Source: a virus
DNA length: 39,378 nucleotides
Strand: one strand, 5' to 3'
Virus record (IMG/VR): IMGVR_UViG_3300031972_002130
Location: 1-39,378 of that record
Positions 3,053-10,556 of the stretch are shown here, piece after piece; position 1 is the first letter of the stretch, and each line of letters begins with the position of its first letter. The translations under genes were made by a program, and so were the position numbers. The notes beneath the pieces were generated by a model. The model had not been told where the DNA came from, searched no databases, and saw only the letters and a program-made list of their open reading frames with translations.

Positions 3053-3284
3053 TTTCGCCTCCCGTATCTGTCATTGTTTTTAACAGAGAATCGAACTTTG
3101 TAAAAGCTGTTCTCAAATTGTTCATCGAACTTTCCATTTCCTCTTTCGATAACTCTCCATAATCTTCTTCTTGATATTGCTCCAAGTAAGAGTTGAACAC
3201 CTCGGACAAAGCATATGCTGCCATAGCCAAGTCTCCTTGTGTAAGGAGAGGTGTATCTTGCGGTTCTTCATTCGTTACATTCAT
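3033..3284 (-). CDS. Hypothetical small helical protein
   Basis: An acidic 83-residue protein, not recognised. It is mostly helical (LLTQGDLAMAAYALSEVFNS, then further charged helices). The ATG at 3284 is chosen because TGGAGGTAAAC precedes it. A longer frame begins at 3368 and would add about 28 hydrophobic residues (YCSPWRLLFPFWEL), but it lacks a ribosome site. It overlaps the following SH3-like gene by 20 bases. Function unknown. Confidence 0.65.
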   Translation of the reverse strand: MNVTNEEPQDTPLLTQGDLAMAAYALSEVFNSYLEQYQEEDYGELSKEEMESSMNNLRTAFTKFDSLLKTMTDTGGESATKDG

Positions 3285-3389
3285 GTTTACCTCCAAATTT
3301 GTATTTGATGTAAGTTCCCAGAAAGGGAAGAGAAGTCGCCAAGGCGAACAGTACACTCCATTCGCCATGACAGTTTAACAGGTGATGCA

Positions 3390-3695
3390 TTATTCTTCCT
3401 TTTTAACAATCTTGTTAACTGTTTGGAAAAGGTCAACAAACTCTGCCAAGTCTACATCATCGTCAATCATCCGATAGATCTTCATTGCCATCTTTTGTTG
3501 TTTAGCATCAAGCCATTCTTGCTCTTTGTAGTTGGTTTTAAGATCTTTTAATTGATCTTTGAACGGTTGCATTGCATCGTTCAGTTCTTTTATAGATTGG
3601 ATAAAGTCAATCATATGACCAGCTTCGTCTTTATCTACTTCGTCATCGTTCCATTCCGAAACCATAACTATTTGTTCTTTATTGTCATTCCACAT
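3390..3695 (-). CDS. Hypothetical acidic helical protein
   Basis: A 101-residue protein of unknown function, acidic, with a central predicted coiled coil (residues about 30-70, KELNDAMQPFKDQLKDLKTN) and a C-terminal helix ending KIVKKEE. AAGGAGGATAT precedes the ATG and a near-consensus promoter lies just upstream, so this is the first gene of a transcript running toward the dUTPase. No catalytic motif is visible. Confidence 0.7.
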   Translation of the reverse strand: MWNDNKEQIVMVSEWNDDEVDKDEAGHMIDFIQSIKELNDAMQPFKDQLKDLKTNYKEQEWLDAKQQKMAMKIYRMIDDDVDLAEFVDLFQTVNKIVKKEE

Positions 3696-3726
3696 ATATC
3701 CTCCTTATTGGTTTTTGTGTAATTAT

Positions 3727-3754
3727 ATTATAACACGTTTGTGTTGTTTGTCAA
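3727..3754 (-). promoter_or_regulatory. Sigma70-type promoter
   Basis: TTGACA, 16 base spacer, GTGT then TATAAT. It sits directly after the deaminase stop codon and starts the transcript with the genes from 3695 down. Confidence 0.85.
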
Positions 3755-4623
3755 GAAAAAAGTTTCTCTTTTGCCCAAAATTGTGTTTGGCGGATCTGTT
3801 CTTTCGTCAGTCCGCAATGTTTTCTGGCAAGATGAAATTCTTTTTCTAAAGTTGTTTGAGATAATAACGTATTATCTGTGCATAATGAAAACTTTATGTC
3901 GTTTTCATACCATTGTTTCATTGGATGATCTGAATATTCATTGATACATCCTGTGTGATAATTTGAAGAAAGGCATGCTTCTATCAACACATCCTTCTCT
4001 CTTATCAAATCCATTGTCTTCCAGTCGTCCAAGGCAGACAAGCCATGTCCAATTCTTTGAGCATGGAGGAAGTTTATAGCAACCTCAATCTCTTTAGCTG
4101 GTCTTCCTTCTCCAGCATGGACAGTCCTGCCGAGATCATACCTCTTTGCCTTCATAAAGGCATCTGAATAGTCTAGAAGAGACCATCTATGCTTGTCCGA
4201 TGGTGCACCAGCCAAATCAACTCCAACGACTCTATCACGCGTTTTTGCGACTTCTACAAGACGATCTAAAACATTTGGATGTTCACCATAGAGACCACAA
4301 AGGATAAGATTTATGTTGCCCCAAATGCCAGCCAAAGCAGCGTCAACTATATCTTCAACTGGTGCTCCATAGTGAAGCTGAGGGGCAAAACGTATTTCTC
4401 CTCCGTAAATTCCTGCTAGGTTTAAATCCATACATAAATTAAAGACAGCTTCTTTTACCAAGTCACCTGTTTGCAATGTTCCTAAAGTTAGTTGAAAACT
4501 TTCCAATGCTTTATGTAAACCCATTCCTTTATAAAAATAAATCTCTTTAGGGTTGTAGCCTAGGAATTTTGTTAATGTCGACTCTCTTATTGAACCATCT
4601 AGATGTAAGTGTAATTCTATCAC
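3751..4623 (-). CDS. Adenosine deaminase family protein
   Basis: Member of the ADA-like metallo-hydrolase family, which deaminates (deoxy)adenosine or related purines. Family motifs are in order: IELHLHLDGS (zinc ligands His5, His7), HAGEGR with the catalytic Glu, QRIGHG, and SLCTDN, corresponding to SLNTDDP with the zinc-binding Asp. Second Asp is replaced by Asn. Length is 290 residues, slightly shorter than the usual 330-350. GTG at 4623 is chosen because AAGGAG lies six bases upstream and the preceding polymerase gene stops 11 bases away; a longer ATG frame would begin inside the polymerase gene. The substrate is not shown. Coupling to the polymerase gene suggests a nucleotide-pool role. 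Confidence 0.85.
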   Translation of the reverse strand: MIELHLHLDGSIRESTLTKFLGYNPKEIYFYKGMGLHKALESFQLTLGTLQTGDLVKEAVFNLCMDLNLAGIYGGEIRFAPQLHYGAPVEDIVDAALAGIWGNINLILCGLYGEHPNVLDRLVEVAKTRDRVVGVDLAGAPSDKHRWSLLDYSDAFMKAKRYDLGRTVHAGEGRPAKEIEVAINFLHAQRIGHGLSALDDWKTMDLIREKDVLIEACLSSNYHTGCINEYSDHPMKQWYENDIKFSLCTDNTLLSQTTLEKEFHLARKHCGLTKEQIRQTQFWAKEKLFS

Positions 4624-4634
4624 AATCTTCTCCT

Positions 4635-7600
4635 TTAAATTAAAATTGCCCATGTGTTGTTTAGTGATCCATAAGTAGAGAATCCCCAATCAGCAGAATG
4701 TTTTGGCTTCAACATATAAGCTCTGTTGATTGCTAGAGAGTCCCTATCAGGGTCTACTCCCCAACATCTTATTTGAGTCTCTACTGAATTTGAATCTATG
4801 ACTTTCACAACAAAGAACGGTTTACCATTTTTAGTTTTCTTCTTGGTTACGGATCTAATGATTCCCCAACAGAACATCAAGTCTGGATCATACTCTGAAA
4901 TGGGCGGAACACCTTTGGCATCTAATTTATCCATGATGTGTTGAGACATTACCATAGACACAGGAAAAATACCTGTTAGGTCTGCAAAGAAACCAATCTT
5001 CTCATCCTCTGTGAATGAGCCCTCTGGTCTGTAAGTTTCAATGTTCTCGTCGAACTTCTTACGACTCTTAGGGCGATCTACAATTGCTGCTGACCAAAAG
5101 TGTTTATCACCTGTGAATCGCTCATCAATAAGATCTCCCAACGCTCCCGCTCTGCAAAGTACATCGAGAGCTTTCTTGTTGAGTTTAGAATATTTTACAT
5201 CATCATGGAATAGTAATTCATCAATTGTGTTGAACGGGCGATTAGCCAATACCTGATCGAATGCTGCGTCTCCAAAGCCTTTGATACCAGTCAATGGAGC
5301 GATCAACGTATCTTCACCTTCAATCTTCCAAGTTGCTTCGGAGTAATTGATGTTTAGAGGTTTGATCTTGTATCCATGCTGCTTGGCAAGGTTGATTGCT
5401 TTCTCCTTGCGAGACTCTGGTTCTTTGTCCAAGAATGATGCAACCCACTCGGCTTTGTAGTAGGTACACAACCAAGCACATTGATAAGAAATAATAGAGT
5501 AGGATACAGCGTGAGACTTGTTAAACCCATAACCGGAAAAGTACTCAAAGGTTTGCCACAATTCCTTGGCAGCCCTCTTGTCGACATCCTTTTGTACACA
5601 ACCTCTGATAAACTTTTCATATATAGCCTCCTTGACTTCGTGACCTTTACCTGTTCCTTTCTTGGTTAGGATCTTACGGAGAAGATTTGCCTCATCCATA
5701 GTAATACCGTCGCCAAGTTCATAAGCAAGTTTCGCAATTTGCTCTTGGAAAATCAAAAAGCCATGTGTTTCTTCAGTAATGTCTCTTACCTTGTCATTTA
5801 GATACTCAACAGAATCAGGATCATGAACAGCTTTGATGTAGGCCTTGTCAACACCTGCCGATAAAGGACCGGGACGATAGATAGAAGTGATAGCAGAGAT
5901 GTCTACAATAGATGTAGGCTTAACTCTTTCCGCAAGCTTCTGTGCTCCATCCTCGGTGAATTGGAAGATACCAATCCATTGGCCATTCTCGAAGATGTTC
6001 TCATAAACTGTTTGGTCATGAAGATCAATCTGGTCCGGGTGAAGGTGACAGTCATAAAACTTTTTGATTTGAGCAAAGGTTGGGTTTTCAATGTCATGAT
6101 GTCTTCGAAGAATCTTAGACACACAGTCCTCAATCATACGAAGTGTGGACAACCCAAGGATATCAAACTTGATAAAACCCATTGGCTCTAATTGACGAAC
6201 ATTCATACCTTCAGACCAAGGAGTCTGTCTGACACCCTTGGAAGAGATAAGAGGCATATAACGATCCAAGCCCTCACCAATCACCACACCACCAGCGTGG
6301 CGAGAACACGAACGATAAGACCCATGAAGAGCTTTGACGTGTTCCTTGACGTGAGGATATTTCTTGAAGAACTTCTGAAGAGATTCAGAGAACTCAATCA
6401 CTTCGTCAAAGGTCGGAGTATATACACCTGCTCTGATTCCGTGCTTCTTCTTTGCCGCAGGAGTTGCCTCGTGCATCATCTTACCAGTGACAGCATTTAC
6501 TTCTATAAAAGGAATTTCATAAAACTTAGAGATGTCCTTGATAAGAGAACGAAGTTGTAATGTGTTCCAGTTAGAAATAGGAACAACAACATCATTACCC
6601 CACTGTTCAATCATCACATCTTTAAGAACCATAGGATCGGATACATCATAATCAATATCAGGATAATCAGTCGCATCTGATCTGAGGAAACGTGAGAATA
6701 GAAGATCGTATTTAATTGGATCAACTTGAGTAATGCCCAAAGCATAAGCAACAAGAGAGCCAGCCGCAGAACCACGACCAGGTCCCGATATTTGTATTTC
6801 ATTTGTTTTATCCGCGATTGCTTTCATTGTGAGAAAGTACTTTGAAAAACCACGATCTGCAATTACTTTTAGTTCGTGCTTCAAACGCTTCTCGTATTTG
6901 TAAATAGGAGAAGAAGACTTTCCTTGCTTTCTTGTTAGACCTCTGTTCTTCAGAATTGTAAACAAACCTTCGGATGAAACTCTGTCAAGGTACTCATCTT
7001 CATTGTATCCAGCAGGGACAACAAATTCGGGAAGTCTTACCGTTGTATCAGGAATAAAATCCTCGCAACGTTCCATAGCAATGTGATAAGACTCTTCTAT
7101 AGATTGACGAATCAATTCATCACTATAGTCTTGCTCACATTCCTCAGAATATTGTTTGTAAGACTCCCACATCTCTTGACCGTTCTTTGGATACAATTCG
7201 TATTCCATCTCTTGAACAGAAGTTGGAAGATTCATATCTAACCACTCGGGCTTTCCACGACCAAGCCAGCCAAGACGCTTGTATAGTTCTCTGTCTTTCC
7301 AAGCATCAGGGTTGGGATAGTGTGAGTCACCAGTGGAAACTATTTTCATATCGTATTCTTCAGCAATTTGAATGATGAATTGGTTTAGATCGTGTTGTTC
7401 GGGAACTCTGTTCCATTGAACTTCAGGATACCAACGATCACCAAAGATGAAAAGCATGTCTTCAGTCATCTGTCTCATACTCTTGAGAACAGCCTCAGAT
7501 CCCTCCTCACGGTTCTGCCAATAACAACCAGCATAAACACCACCAAGACAAGCAGAAAGAGCAATGACGCCCTCGTTATACTTCTCCAATAAGGCAAAGT

Positions 7601-8108: not shown

Positions 8109-8137
8109 ATTATAACATAAAACCCCTTGTTTGTCAA
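8109..8137 (-). promoter_or_regulatory. Sigma70-type promoter for the DnaE-type polymerase
   Basis: TTGACA, 17 base spacer, TATAAT with extended TG. The -35 box lies in the stem and loop of the terminator at 8119-8146. Confidence 0.85.
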
Positions 8138-8146
8138 GGGGTTTTT
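8119..8146 (-). terminator. Intrinsic terminator after the PD-(D/E)XK gene, overlapping a promoter
   Basis: On the minus strand AAAACCCCTTG-ACAAA-CAAGGGGTTTT forms an 11 bp stem with T and A tracts on both sides, so it may work in both directions. It follows the nuclease stop codon at 8152. The TTGACA of the next promoter is built from the stem and loop. Confidence 0.75.
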
Positions 8147-8151
8147 TATAA

Positions 8152-8724
8152 TTAAAATATGTTTTCTAGAAAGCTTTTAAGATCACTCTCTTCTGTTTCT
8201 TCTGTTAATTTGAAAGTGATACCAGCAGCAATCCCATTTTTAATTGTTTTTGATCCAAAATCAAACTTATAAACATCTGTTGTGCCTTTCCTAAGATGAG
8301 GTGTTCTGCCTAAAATGGGATGAGGTACCTTGTAATCAAAGTCAGAATCTATTATCGTGAGGTTGATATGGTCTGGTTCTACATCAATAAACGCAAACTT
8401 ATCACAACCTACTAATCTAAGACTTTCGTGTTGGTAGTTTTTACATTTACCAAACCTAGCGGTTTTTACTTCGACTTTGAAATCATTGACAATCAGGTCA
8501 TAAGTTGCTTCACCGTCAATCTGATCTTCATTGTAAACACAATTCATACCATATTTTTTGCAAAGGTTTTCTAACCAACGCTCCCCGACCTTTCCACTTG
8601 GATCATTTTTCAATAAATTGATCTTTTCAAAATGAGAGTCAATCCAAATATTACTTCTCTCTTGTTTATCATACTCTTCACTTATGATACTTTTAAATTT
8701 TTTAAAATCATTATTAATTAACAT
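8152..8724 (-). CDS. PD-(D/E)XK-type endonuclease, probable restriction enzyme partner
   Basis: A 190-residue protein with a recognisable PD-(D/E)XK nuclease core: GKVGERWLENLCKKYG (Glu48), DGEATYDLIVND (Asp76), FKVEVKTARFGK (Glu85, Lys87). The order E-D-ExK matches many type II restriction enzymes. The rest (FAFIDVEPDHINLTIIDSD, TPHLRKGTTDVYKF) looks like beta strands of the same domain. It lies 47 bases downstream of an adenine methyltransferase and has its own promoter (8757-8785) and terminator. This is the arrangement of a type II restriction-modification pair (inference). A nicking, repair or resolvase-like nuclease is the alternative. AAGGAGGAAACAATG marks the start. Confidence 0.75.
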   Translation of the reverse strand: MLINNDFKKFKSIISEEYDKQERSNIWIDSHFEKINLLKNDPSGKVGERWLENLCKKYGMNCVYNEDQIDGEATYDLIVNDFKVEVKTARFGKCKNYQHESLRLVGCDKFAFIDVEPDHINLTIIDSDFDYKVPHPILGRTPHLRKGTTDVYKFDFGSKTIKNGIAAGITFKLTEETEESDLKSFLENIF

Positions 8725-8756
8725 TGTTTCCTCCTTGTTGTAATTAATGTATTTTT

Positions 8757-8785
8757 AATATAACTTGTTTTCTATAAATTGTCAA
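8757..8785 (-). promoter_or_regulatory. Sigma70-type promoter for the PD-(D/E)XK nuclease
   Basis: TTGACA, 17 base spacer, TATATT. The -35 lies in the last codons of the methyltransferase, so the nuclease can be expressed apart from it. Confidence 0.7.
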
Positions 8786-9902
8786 ATATTTTTATTAACT
8801 TTTTATATATATAAGATGTACGCAAGTTTAATGCAGAATTGGTTGATAAAAATGAAACCTCGCTCCAATCTATTTTTATCGATGCTGATATCATTTCCTT
8901 GTGTTTGTTTTTAAAAACAACACCATAACCCTTTTGACCAGGCAAGTCTTCAAAACAAGAATAGGCTCTCATGTTTTCTTTGCCAAAGCAGGTAGATGGT
9001 ATATATACATCACACTTGCTCAACATATCTGTGTTTCTTTGTTGTGACGGAGTATCTCCATTAGAAAGTGAATAGATCTTCATAACACTTTCATCTATTT
9101 CTTCTATGTCATATACTTTTTCGTGGTGATTCTTAGACCAAATTTGAAATATAGTATTGACCAACACTTCTTTCCCGTCCGGATATACAAAGCTACCCTC
9201 TAATTTTTCTGAATGTATGAGGCTATAATCTTCTATTCTTTTTCTAGGTGAGCCTTTACCATCGCTTTCAAACAATTGAGGTAATATAAAACAAACATAG
9301 TCTGAAAAATTAGCAGAATGGTTTATAAACTTTAATGCCAAATGCCCTCTCAGACCAAAAGGTGGATTACCAAAGACAACATAGTTCTTTTCTTCTTTTG
9401 GAAGCCATGTTAGGTAGTCGTGTTGAATCACATCTTTTCTTCTTGGCTCGATGTCTAATCCAATAGTTCTTTTATTCGGAAGAACATCTAAAAACACACC
9501 AGCTCCTGCTGATGGCTCTATGTAGCTGAAGTCTTCTTCATTCTCGCCTAAATCTTTGAGTTTGTTTTTGAAAATCTCATAACACTGTTTTGCCATATCA
9601 AGTGTTGTAAAGAATTGGTCTTTATCTTTGAATGAATATTGTGTATAGTCAATTTCTAAATTACAAAGCTTCATTAGATCAAATCTGTAGTTCTTTGGGA
9701 CATTCTTTAGTTCTATCCATCTGGTGACTGTACCTCTGGCAACATTAAGTTCTGTTGCTATATCACTTATTGCTTTGTTACGATATTTTTTATTATTTTT
9801 TATATAATCTATCAACATGTCTCTCGGCATATTTCCGTTATTCTCTTTCAGTACCTCATCACAAGTTAATTTTTCTATTGTTTGTTTTAAAAGTTCTATC
9901 AT
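8772..9902 (-). CDS. Adenine-specific DNA methyltransferase with N-terminal helix-turn-helix
   Basis: SAM-dependent N6-adenine DNA methyltransferase, 376 residues. Residues about 43-68 form a helix-turn-helix (KAISDIATELNVARGTVTRW). Motif X-like DQFFTTLDMAKQCYEIF lies near 95-111, motif I EPSAGAGVFLD at 129-139, and motif IV NPPF at 179-182. The C-terminal half probably carries target recognition. AAGGAGG-like TGGAGGAACA precedes the ATG, which overlaps the clpS stop by four bases. A nuclease gene lies directly downstream, so this is likely the modification half of a phage restriction-modification pair. The HTH could help bind DNA or regulate the pair, as controller domains do in some systems (inference). 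An orphan methyltransferase protecting phage DNA from host restriction is the alternative. Confidence 0.85.
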   Translation of the reverse strand: MIELLKQTIEKLTCDEVLKENNGNMPRDMLIDYIKNNKKYRNKAISDIATELNVARGTVTRWIELKNVPKNYRFDLMKLCNLEIDYTQYSFKDKDQFFTTLDMAKQCYEIFKNKLKDLGENEEDFSYIEPSAGAGVFLDVLPNKRTIGLDIEPRRKDVIQHDYLTWLPKEEKNYVVFGNPPFGLRGHLALKFINHSANFSDYVCFILPQLFESDGKGSPRKRIEDYSLIHSEKLEGSFVYPDGKEVLVNTIFQIWSKNHHEKVYDIEEIDESVMKIYSLSNGDTPSQQRNTDMLSKCDVYIPSTCFGKENMRAYSCFEDLPGQKGYGVVFKNKHKEMISASIKIDWSEVSFLSTNSALNLRTSYIYKKLIKIFDNL

Positions 9903-10222
9903 TGTTCCTCCATGGTTATTAAAAGTGGGTGCCCTTCTGATCGGGCAATTTGATTACATCGCTTGACTTTCATTACTGCTATTTCTTTTGAGTAAATTCC
10001 TGCTATTCCTTTGCCTTTTTCATGAACTTCCATCATGATTGAACTAGCTTTTTGAATACTGAAGTTGAATGCATCCATAAGAATAACAATAACAAAATCC
10101 ATCGGTGTAAAATCATCGTTGTGTAACACAACCTTATACTTACTCGGCGGCTCCAGTTTTTGGCGATCCTCAAGATCCACGCCATGACCTGTGCCTTCTT
10201 TTCTTTCTTTATCTGTTGACAT
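9899..10222 (-). CDS. clpS: ClpS-like N-end rule adaptor
   Basis: ClpS binds N-degron substrates and delivers them to the ClpA unfoldase of ClpAP. This 107-residue protein carries the signature KYKVVLHNDDFTPMDFVI (residues 28-45, with the NDD substrate-pocket residues at 35-37 and Met41), MMEVHEKGKGIAG with His67, and the closing HPLLITMEE. The length and order match bacterial ClpS, with a 25-residue flexible N-terminal tail that in E. coli engages ClpA. AGGAGGAAT precedes the ATG; a coiled-coil gene lies eight bases upstream and the methyltransferase overlaps downstream. It may redirect host ClpAP or work with the phage ClpP-like protein (inference). Confidence 0.93.
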   Translation of the reverse strand: MSTDKERKEGTGHGVDLEDRQKLEPPSKYKVVLHNDDFTPMDFVIVILMDAFNFSIQKASSIMMEVHEKGKGIAGIYSKEIAVMKVKRCNQIARSEGHPLLITMEEQ

Positions 10223-10230
10223 AATTCCTC

Positions 10231-10494
10231 CTATTTGCCTAACAATTTAATTTCAATCTCCTCTAGTCTTCTCTTTTGTTCTCTGAGAAGATCAGTGTGT
10301 ACTTTCATTCTTTTAACATATCGTATAGAGTTATCCGGATCTTGCAAAATGAGAGTCTTGAATTTATCCACTTGTTTCTCTCTAGTGTCCACTTCTTTTT
10401 GAAGCATCTCTAATTCTTTCTCCAAACGAACTGTCTCTTCTGGTGATAAAAGCTTACGAGATTTGAATATCTTTTTATAAAATTCCTTAAACAT
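10231..10494 (-). CDS. Small coiled-coil protein
   Basis: An 87-residue highly charged protein, almost entirely a predicted coiled coil (ETVRLEKELEMLQKEVDTRE, then LLREQKRRLEEIEIKLLGK). Basic N-terminus MFKEFYKKIFKSRKLL. AAAGGAGGAGTAATAATG marks the start. It is the first gene after a promoter and precedes clpS by eight bases. Function unknown. Confidence 0.75.
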   Translation of the reverse strand: MFKEFYKKIFKSRKLLSPEETVRLEKELEMLQKEVDTREKQVDKFKTLILQDPDNSIRYVKRMKVHTDLLREQKRRLEEIEIKLLGK

Positions 10495-10528: not shown

Positions 10529-10556
10529 ATTATAACACATTCTGTAAGTTTGTCAA
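10529..10556 (-). promoter_or_regulatory. Sigma70-type promoter for coiled-coil/clpS/methyltransferase transcript
   Basis: TTGACA, 16 base spacer ending in TGTGT, TATAAT. Confidence 0.85.

Follow-up and report, generated by a model that had tools for sequence, protein, structure and literature searches.

The window analysed here is the whole of a 39,378-base IMG/VR virus record and represents a fragment of a tailed phage. Nearly all of its genes lie on the minus strand. They include structural and lysis genes (head maturation protease, endolysin), replication and recombination genes (DnaE polymerase, DnaB helicase, UvsX recombinase, SSB) and nucleotide-metabolism genes (ribonucleotide reductase, thymidylate synthase, dUTPase, adenosine deaminase); searches of the window proteins identified no lysogeny gene. 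The adenosine deaminase family protein (3751-4689; Pfam E 1e-46), encoded beside the DnaE-type polymerase gene, represents a nucleotide-metabolism function unexpected for a phage. A preliminary description had picked out two adjacent minus-strand ORFs, a methyltransferase followed by a nuclease, and had assigned the nuclease a separate promoter, with its -35 box in the end of the methyltransferase gene, and a terminator of its own. Both genes are in the ORF list, and both regulatory elements were found at the locus, which comprises the following features:

8152..8724, minus strand: PD-(D/E)XK nuclease (R), ORF of 190 aa, with E48, D76, E85-x-K87 and Q98
8772..9902, minus strand: methyltransferase (M), ORF of 376 aa, N6-adenine DNA methyltransferase-like
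9899-10222, minus strand: clpS homologue (Pfam E 1.7e-29), whose end shares 4 nt with the start of the methyltransferase gene
10231-10494, minus strand: small ORF upstream of the clpS and methyltransferase genes
8757..8785, minus strand: promoter-like site of the nuclease, TTGACA-17-TATATT, 11/12
8119..8145, minus strand: terminator-like stem-loop with a T run, 3' of the nuclease stop
8137-8109, minus strand: dnaE promoter, 12/12, TG-extended
10529..10556, minus strand: promoter-like site, 12/12, extended -10, upstream of ORF 10231-10494, clpS and the methyltransferase gene

The -35 box of the nuclease promoter-like site (8785-8780) falls within the end of the methyltransferase gene, and the site at 10529..10556 is probably the promoter of the methyltransferase transcript. 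Separate promoters of this kind could give the two genes different timing. Across the whole window, 14 sites on the minus (coding) strand match the sigma-70 consensus at 11 or 12 of 12 positions, whereas dinucleotide-shuffled versions of the window have 0-5 when both strands are counted; the class of sites is therefore not due to chance, although any single site could be. Downstream of the nuclease, the element at 8109-8145 is composite, its terminator hairpin containing the TTGACA that forms the -35 box of the dnaE promoter. The ClpS homologue belongs to the N-degron adaptors and may redirect the host Clp protease.

The methyltransferase is built of an N-terminal HTH (residues ~42-65), a catalytic domain (~92-265) and a C-terminal region (~266-376) that is a candidate target-recognition region and diverges from distant relatives. 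The motifs DQFFTT (95-100, motif X), EPSAGAG (129-135, motif I) and NPPF (179-182) occur in the order of N6-adenine methyltransferases of the M.TaqI-like class. EPSAGAG and NPPF, from which the preliminary description had read an N6-adenine methyltransferase, are invariant at most positions in alignments of homologues; the HTH that it had placed at the N terminus is a weak profile match alone (HTH_6, E 0.017), in a region conserved in close relatives. The protein also matches phrog_5172 (E 8e-34), the phage DNA methyltransferase family phrog_799 (E 1e-12) and, over residues 92-375 spanning the catalytic and C-terminal parts, the PADLOC profile MTase_II PDLC03280 (E 1e-52).

An AlphaFold2 model of the methyltransferase (pLDDT 80) has a SAM-methyltransferase fold, with ErmC, KsgA and M.TaqI as structural matches at Z 13-14.5. 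The M.TaqI match (Z ~13) extends over the C-terminal part as well, at high rmsd. ErmC, an rRNA m6A enzyme, shares the fold, and ErmC and KsgA outrank M.TaqI by Z, but the differences are below 2. The linked nuclease and the match to the type II methyltransferase profile led us to reject an rRNA-methyltransferase role.

The nuclease bears the PD-(D/E)XK residues proposed for it, Glu48, Asp76 and Glu85-x-Lys87, and these are conserved across the family. Among 26 distinct homologues, the window included, E48, E85, K87, Q98 and D108 are invariant, while 25 have D at position 76 and one (L014) has E. The L014 nuclease (3216-3899) also has an insertion before the ExK strand, and its activity may be altered or lost. 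A structural model of the window nuclease, made from a 10-row alignment, reached pLDDT 85.7 and pTM 0.80. In VIA-align, where rows no more than 1 Z apart are tied and a common fold alone shows no function, it matched NhoI at Z 10.9 (rmsd 3.1 over 116 residues), the N-domain of Eco15I and the homing endonuclease I-Ssp6803I each at Z 10.2, archaeal Hjc at up to Z 8.2, below NhoI and Eco15I, the restriction enzyme in 3ndh at Z 6.8, and EcoRV and PvuII at Z 5-6.

By sequence, the nuclease is divergent. The window nuclease was matched by nothing in Pfam (E 0.1) or NCBIfam, and a PDB sequence profile search with the nuclease alignment returned no match. The PADLOC REase_II profiles (PDLC03498/PDLC03515) match the window nuclease weakly (E 0.016) and that of its relative L016 at E 1.6e-11. 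The family also matches the phrog_6927 profile, with E 1e-3 for the window nuclease, 7e-15 for L102 and 1e-9 for L113. Structural relatives in BFVD include an Aureococcus anophagefferens virus protein (30% identity) and another entry at 42%. Going by accession numbers only, the nuclease-like F2Y0Z8 and the methyltransferase-like F2Y348 may belong to the same algal virus.

The two genes recur together across uncultivated viruses. Viral contigs L011-L090 were reached from an alignment of distant methyltransferases, and L096-L109 from a tighter one. L011-L014 encode HTH-methyltransferases with 47-51% identity to that of the window, each with a nuclease homologue just upstream. With a nuclease profile, the partner was found adjoining the methyltransferase throughout the L011-L014 and L096-L109 lineages, except in L101, which has a methyltransferase without a nuclease, and also in the more distant L015-L021; L022, whose contig begins inside the methyltransferase gene, was excluded from this judgement. 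Scans that started from the nuclease gave the same picture. All five matches of a first, smaller scan adjoin a methyltransferase, and when nuclease-only alignments were run against the viral collection, the methyltransferase lay directly downstream in 22 of the 23 new contigs. A family nuclease without an adjacent methyltransferase occurs in L157 (146-781), a relatively close relative that holds half of the pair. Altogether, a homologous nuclease adjoins a homologous methyltransferase in 47 other IMG/VR contigs, a count that includes a few whose methyltransferase is cut by the contig end; with the window, these represent 26 distinct sequence pairs.

In the window the methyltransferase precedes the nuclease. 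All 66 other pair loci, a figure in which some contigs occur more than once, show the opposite order, and in many relatives the two reading frames overlap or touch. Over the 26 distinct pairs, nuclease distances and methyltransferase distances are strongly correlated (Mantel r 0.88, 0/5000 permutations), a correlation that speaks for co-inheritance and not for function. In the L015/L016/L019 group, the one where selection was measurable, the nuclease has a dN/dS of ~0.17-0.24 and the methyltransferase one of 0.12-0.16, pointing to purifying selection on both genes. Of the two, the nuclease diverges faster: from difference counts, L102 and L103 share ~37% identity in the nuclease and ~78% in the methyltransferase. 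In L103 and L105 (~3214-5011) the nuclease genes are identical but 22 positions differ between the methyltransferase genes, which may reflect a recombination mosaic within the pair.

The relatives' pairs sit in replication and recombination clusters, with neighbours resembling gp46/gp47, UvsX, DnaB and UvsW, and a helicase gene lies near the pair in L113, L145, L151 and L155. One pair-bearing contig of 217 kb has T4-like gp23 capsid and terminase genes. A giant-virus origin of the IMG/VR relatives was considered and set aside on the gp23 and terminase genes of this contig; a search for NCLDV capsids matched nothing anywhere, controls included, and is uninformative.

These relatives were reached through alignments only, single-sequence searches being nearly empty. 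Single-protein pattern scans with the window proteins matched nothing in the viral and genome collections. In tblastn against 50,697 GenBank phage records, three family nucleases found no match and a fourth found distant cyanophage proteins only; the window nuclease itself had one match among phages, at E 0.03, and none among plasmids. The close methyltransferase alignment, scanned against bacterial and archaeal genomes, gave no match; since that scan needs near-exact peptide words, absence from bacteria does not follow from it. No close relative with known specificity was found.

For the preliminary description, orthology of the nuclease to a known phage repair or recombination nuclease that occurs without a methyltransferase would tell against a restriction-modification (R-M) pair. 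This applies only in part: nucleases without a methyltransferase are the solitary L157 and distant relatives in several T4-like cyanophages, the phrog_6927 nucleases (~27-32% identity), while the methyltransferase stands next door in those 22 of 23 nuclease-found contigs. The cyanophage proteins (P-SSM7, S-ShM2, S-SSM4, ACG-2014f) share the GxxGE ... D ... ExK pattern of the window nuclease but, unlike the window family, mostly lack an adjacent methyltransferase. S-ShM2, S-SSM4 and ACG-2014f have none beside the nuclease, which in S-ShM2 and S-SSM4 adjoins a helicase gene; S-SSM4 and ACG-2014f carry an N6/N4 methyltransferase elsewhere in the genome, and S-ShM2 has no PF01555 match. In P-SSM7 the nuclease precedes two methyltransferase genes of other types. 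The nuclease family thus extends beyond R-M pairs, or includes what is left of such pairs. On the methyltransferase side, relatives in rV5-like phages occur without such a nuclease. In Helicobacter phage Pt11470_1 and Mycoplasmopsis cynos, a more distant relative of the methyltransferase adjoins a nuclease-like protein of a second family with a PD...E-x-K pattern, and these loci are probable further R-M pairs. The two nuclease-like proteins (L002, 5866-6594, and L006, 3205-3990) both match phrog_18119.

We consider it likely, with good though not full confidence, that the two window genes form a complete type II R-M pair carried by a tailed phage. The reading, first put forward in the preliminary description, draws on the co-occurrence of the genes (22/23), the conserved active site, the type II PADLOC profiles and the restriction-endonuclease-like fold, and the locus has the parts by which such a system is recognised: separate, adjacent nuclease and methyltransferase genes, an intact PD-(D/E)XK active site, and SAM-binding and catalytic motifs together with a candidate target-recognition region. 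The pair is most likely a conserved viral weapon directed, presumably, against host or rival DNA, and not a chance neighbourhood. On the modelled fold, a homing endonuclease and Holliday resolvases are nearly as good as the restriction enzymes (Z 10.2 and 8.2), which counts against this reading. So do the weak restriction-enzyme profile match of the window nuclease (E 0.016), the cyanophage nucleases that lack a neighbouring methyltransferase, the single genes of L157 and L101, and the L014 variant. The nuclease could accordingly be a Holliday-junction resolvase or repair nuclease that stands by chance beside an orphan protective methyltransferase: Hjc-type resolvases reach Z 7-8 against the model, the relatives' pairs lie within replication and recombination gene clusters, and distant cyanophage nucleases are found alone beside a helicase. 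We regard this as unlikely. Near-exclusive pairing with one methyltransferase family is unexpected for a resolvase, NhoI and Eco15I (Z 10.9 and 10.2) resemble the model more closely than Hjc does (8.2), and restriction-enzyme profiles match relatives of the nuclease. A free-standing homing endonuclease of the PDDEXK_5/I-Ssp6803I group, spreading beside the methyltransferase gene, is a good deal less probable still. I-Ssp6803I has the same core fold (Z 10.2) and is the top Foldseek match of the model (E 6e-4), and a Bruynoghevirus PDDEXK_5 endonuclease shares 37% identity with the window nuclease over 84 residues. Against homing, no intron or intein interrupts the methyltransferase ORF, the window nuclease has no match to the PDDEXK_5 profile (PF11645; Pfam, E 0.1), and long co-inheritance over 26 variants with overlapping or touching frames is unlike the sporadic occurrence of homing genes.

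Two further explanations keep the methyltransferase and change the part of the nuclease, and to each we give very little weight, slightly less than to homing. Orphan methyltransferases predominate in phages (PMC4176335), and the relatives in rV5-like phages and L101 lack the nuclease, so that the window methyltransferase might be an orphan anti-restriction enzyme beside a nuclease that is inactive or of unrelated purpose; the catalytic residues, however, are intact in the window and nearly all 26 variants, and the nuclease is under purifying selection in the measurable group. The nuclease might instead be methylation-dependent (type IIM/IV-like), cutting host or rival DNA that carries methyl marks, with the methyltransferase acting at another site, an idea suggested by the top matches NhoI and Eco15I, which, from their entry titles, were solved on methylated target DNA. 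Enzymes of that type need no tightly linked methyltransferase, a common fold does not show methylation dependence, and a partner that made the nuclease's own target would be self-destructive, so the linkage fits a protective partner better.

For the type II R-M pair we infer how the two enzymes would work: that they cleave and methylate DNA at one and the same sequence, that the nuclease forms a dimer, which DNA it attacks and when. The methyltransferase, which probably makes m6A and belongs to the M.TaqI-like class, would methylate a specific sequence on phage DNA, and the packaged, methylated genomes would be protected on entry to the next cell. The nuclease, probably a dimer, would cut the same sequence when unmethylated, so that its targets would be DNA not made by the phage, whether in the host chromosome, in plasmids or in a rival phage. 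Regulation of the module may fall to the N-terminal HTH of the methyltransferase, and in the window the nuclease also has a promoter of its own. Whereas a plasmid on entry to a naive cell depends on a delayed restriction enzyme, a phage that packages methylated DNA would not need one to protect its genome on arrival, which would fit the nuclease-first operons of the relatives. The nucleotide-metabolism genes of the window are compatible with recycling of host DNA and do not separate it from exclusion of rivals. More tentatively, the pair may belong to a virus-held type II R-M lineage that has moved between the replication clusters of unrelated tailed phages as an attack weapon, a view we hold possible but on balance doubtful; it would have distant nuclease relatives in algal giant viruses, and pre-methylated DNA would let the enzyme act at once against rival phages or the chromosome of the host.

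The window pair appears to be of the known type II R-M kind, in which a small, separate PD-(D/E)XK nuclease likewise accompanies an adjacent adenine-methyltransferase-like gene; both components have profile matches. It differs in that its family resides in uncultivated tailed phages, its nuclease is too divergent for Pfam and NCBIfam, and M precedes R, with a promoter for R. The preliminary description had called complete R-M pairs rare in phages, in agreement with a survey that found 9 R-M systems in 831 phage genomes (PMC4176335); in a marine catalogue all but two methyltransferases were solitary (PMC9516812). The temperate Nitratiruptor phage NrS-3 has a complete, biochemically verified type II pair, R.Nph3I/M.Nph3I, with a proposed benefit to the lysogen (PMC10734518), whereas none of the window proteins searched was identified as a lysogeny product. 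Chlorovirus R-M enzymes degrade host DNA, and for the R-M systems of marseilleviruses the proposed role is exclusion of other viruses (PMC7253447, PMC12700378); these systems are virus-borne like the window pair but belong to eukaryotic viruses. Use of modification together with nuclease fusions in the same way has been predicted for jumbo phages (PMC7824862).

What the window family adds is the recurrence of the module in uncultivated phages. The two genes are nearly always intact together in the 47 other uncultivated viral contigs, despite the reported rarity of such pairs, and their carriers include at least one contig with T4-like capsid and terminase genes as well as a phage with a DnaE-type polymerase. 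Because the pair was not found in 50,697 GenBank phage records, surveys of cultured phages would miss it. The nuclease family is also a source of putative restriction enzymes. If the pair is active, the offensive use of restriction enzymes by phages, as in chloroviruses, would become testable.
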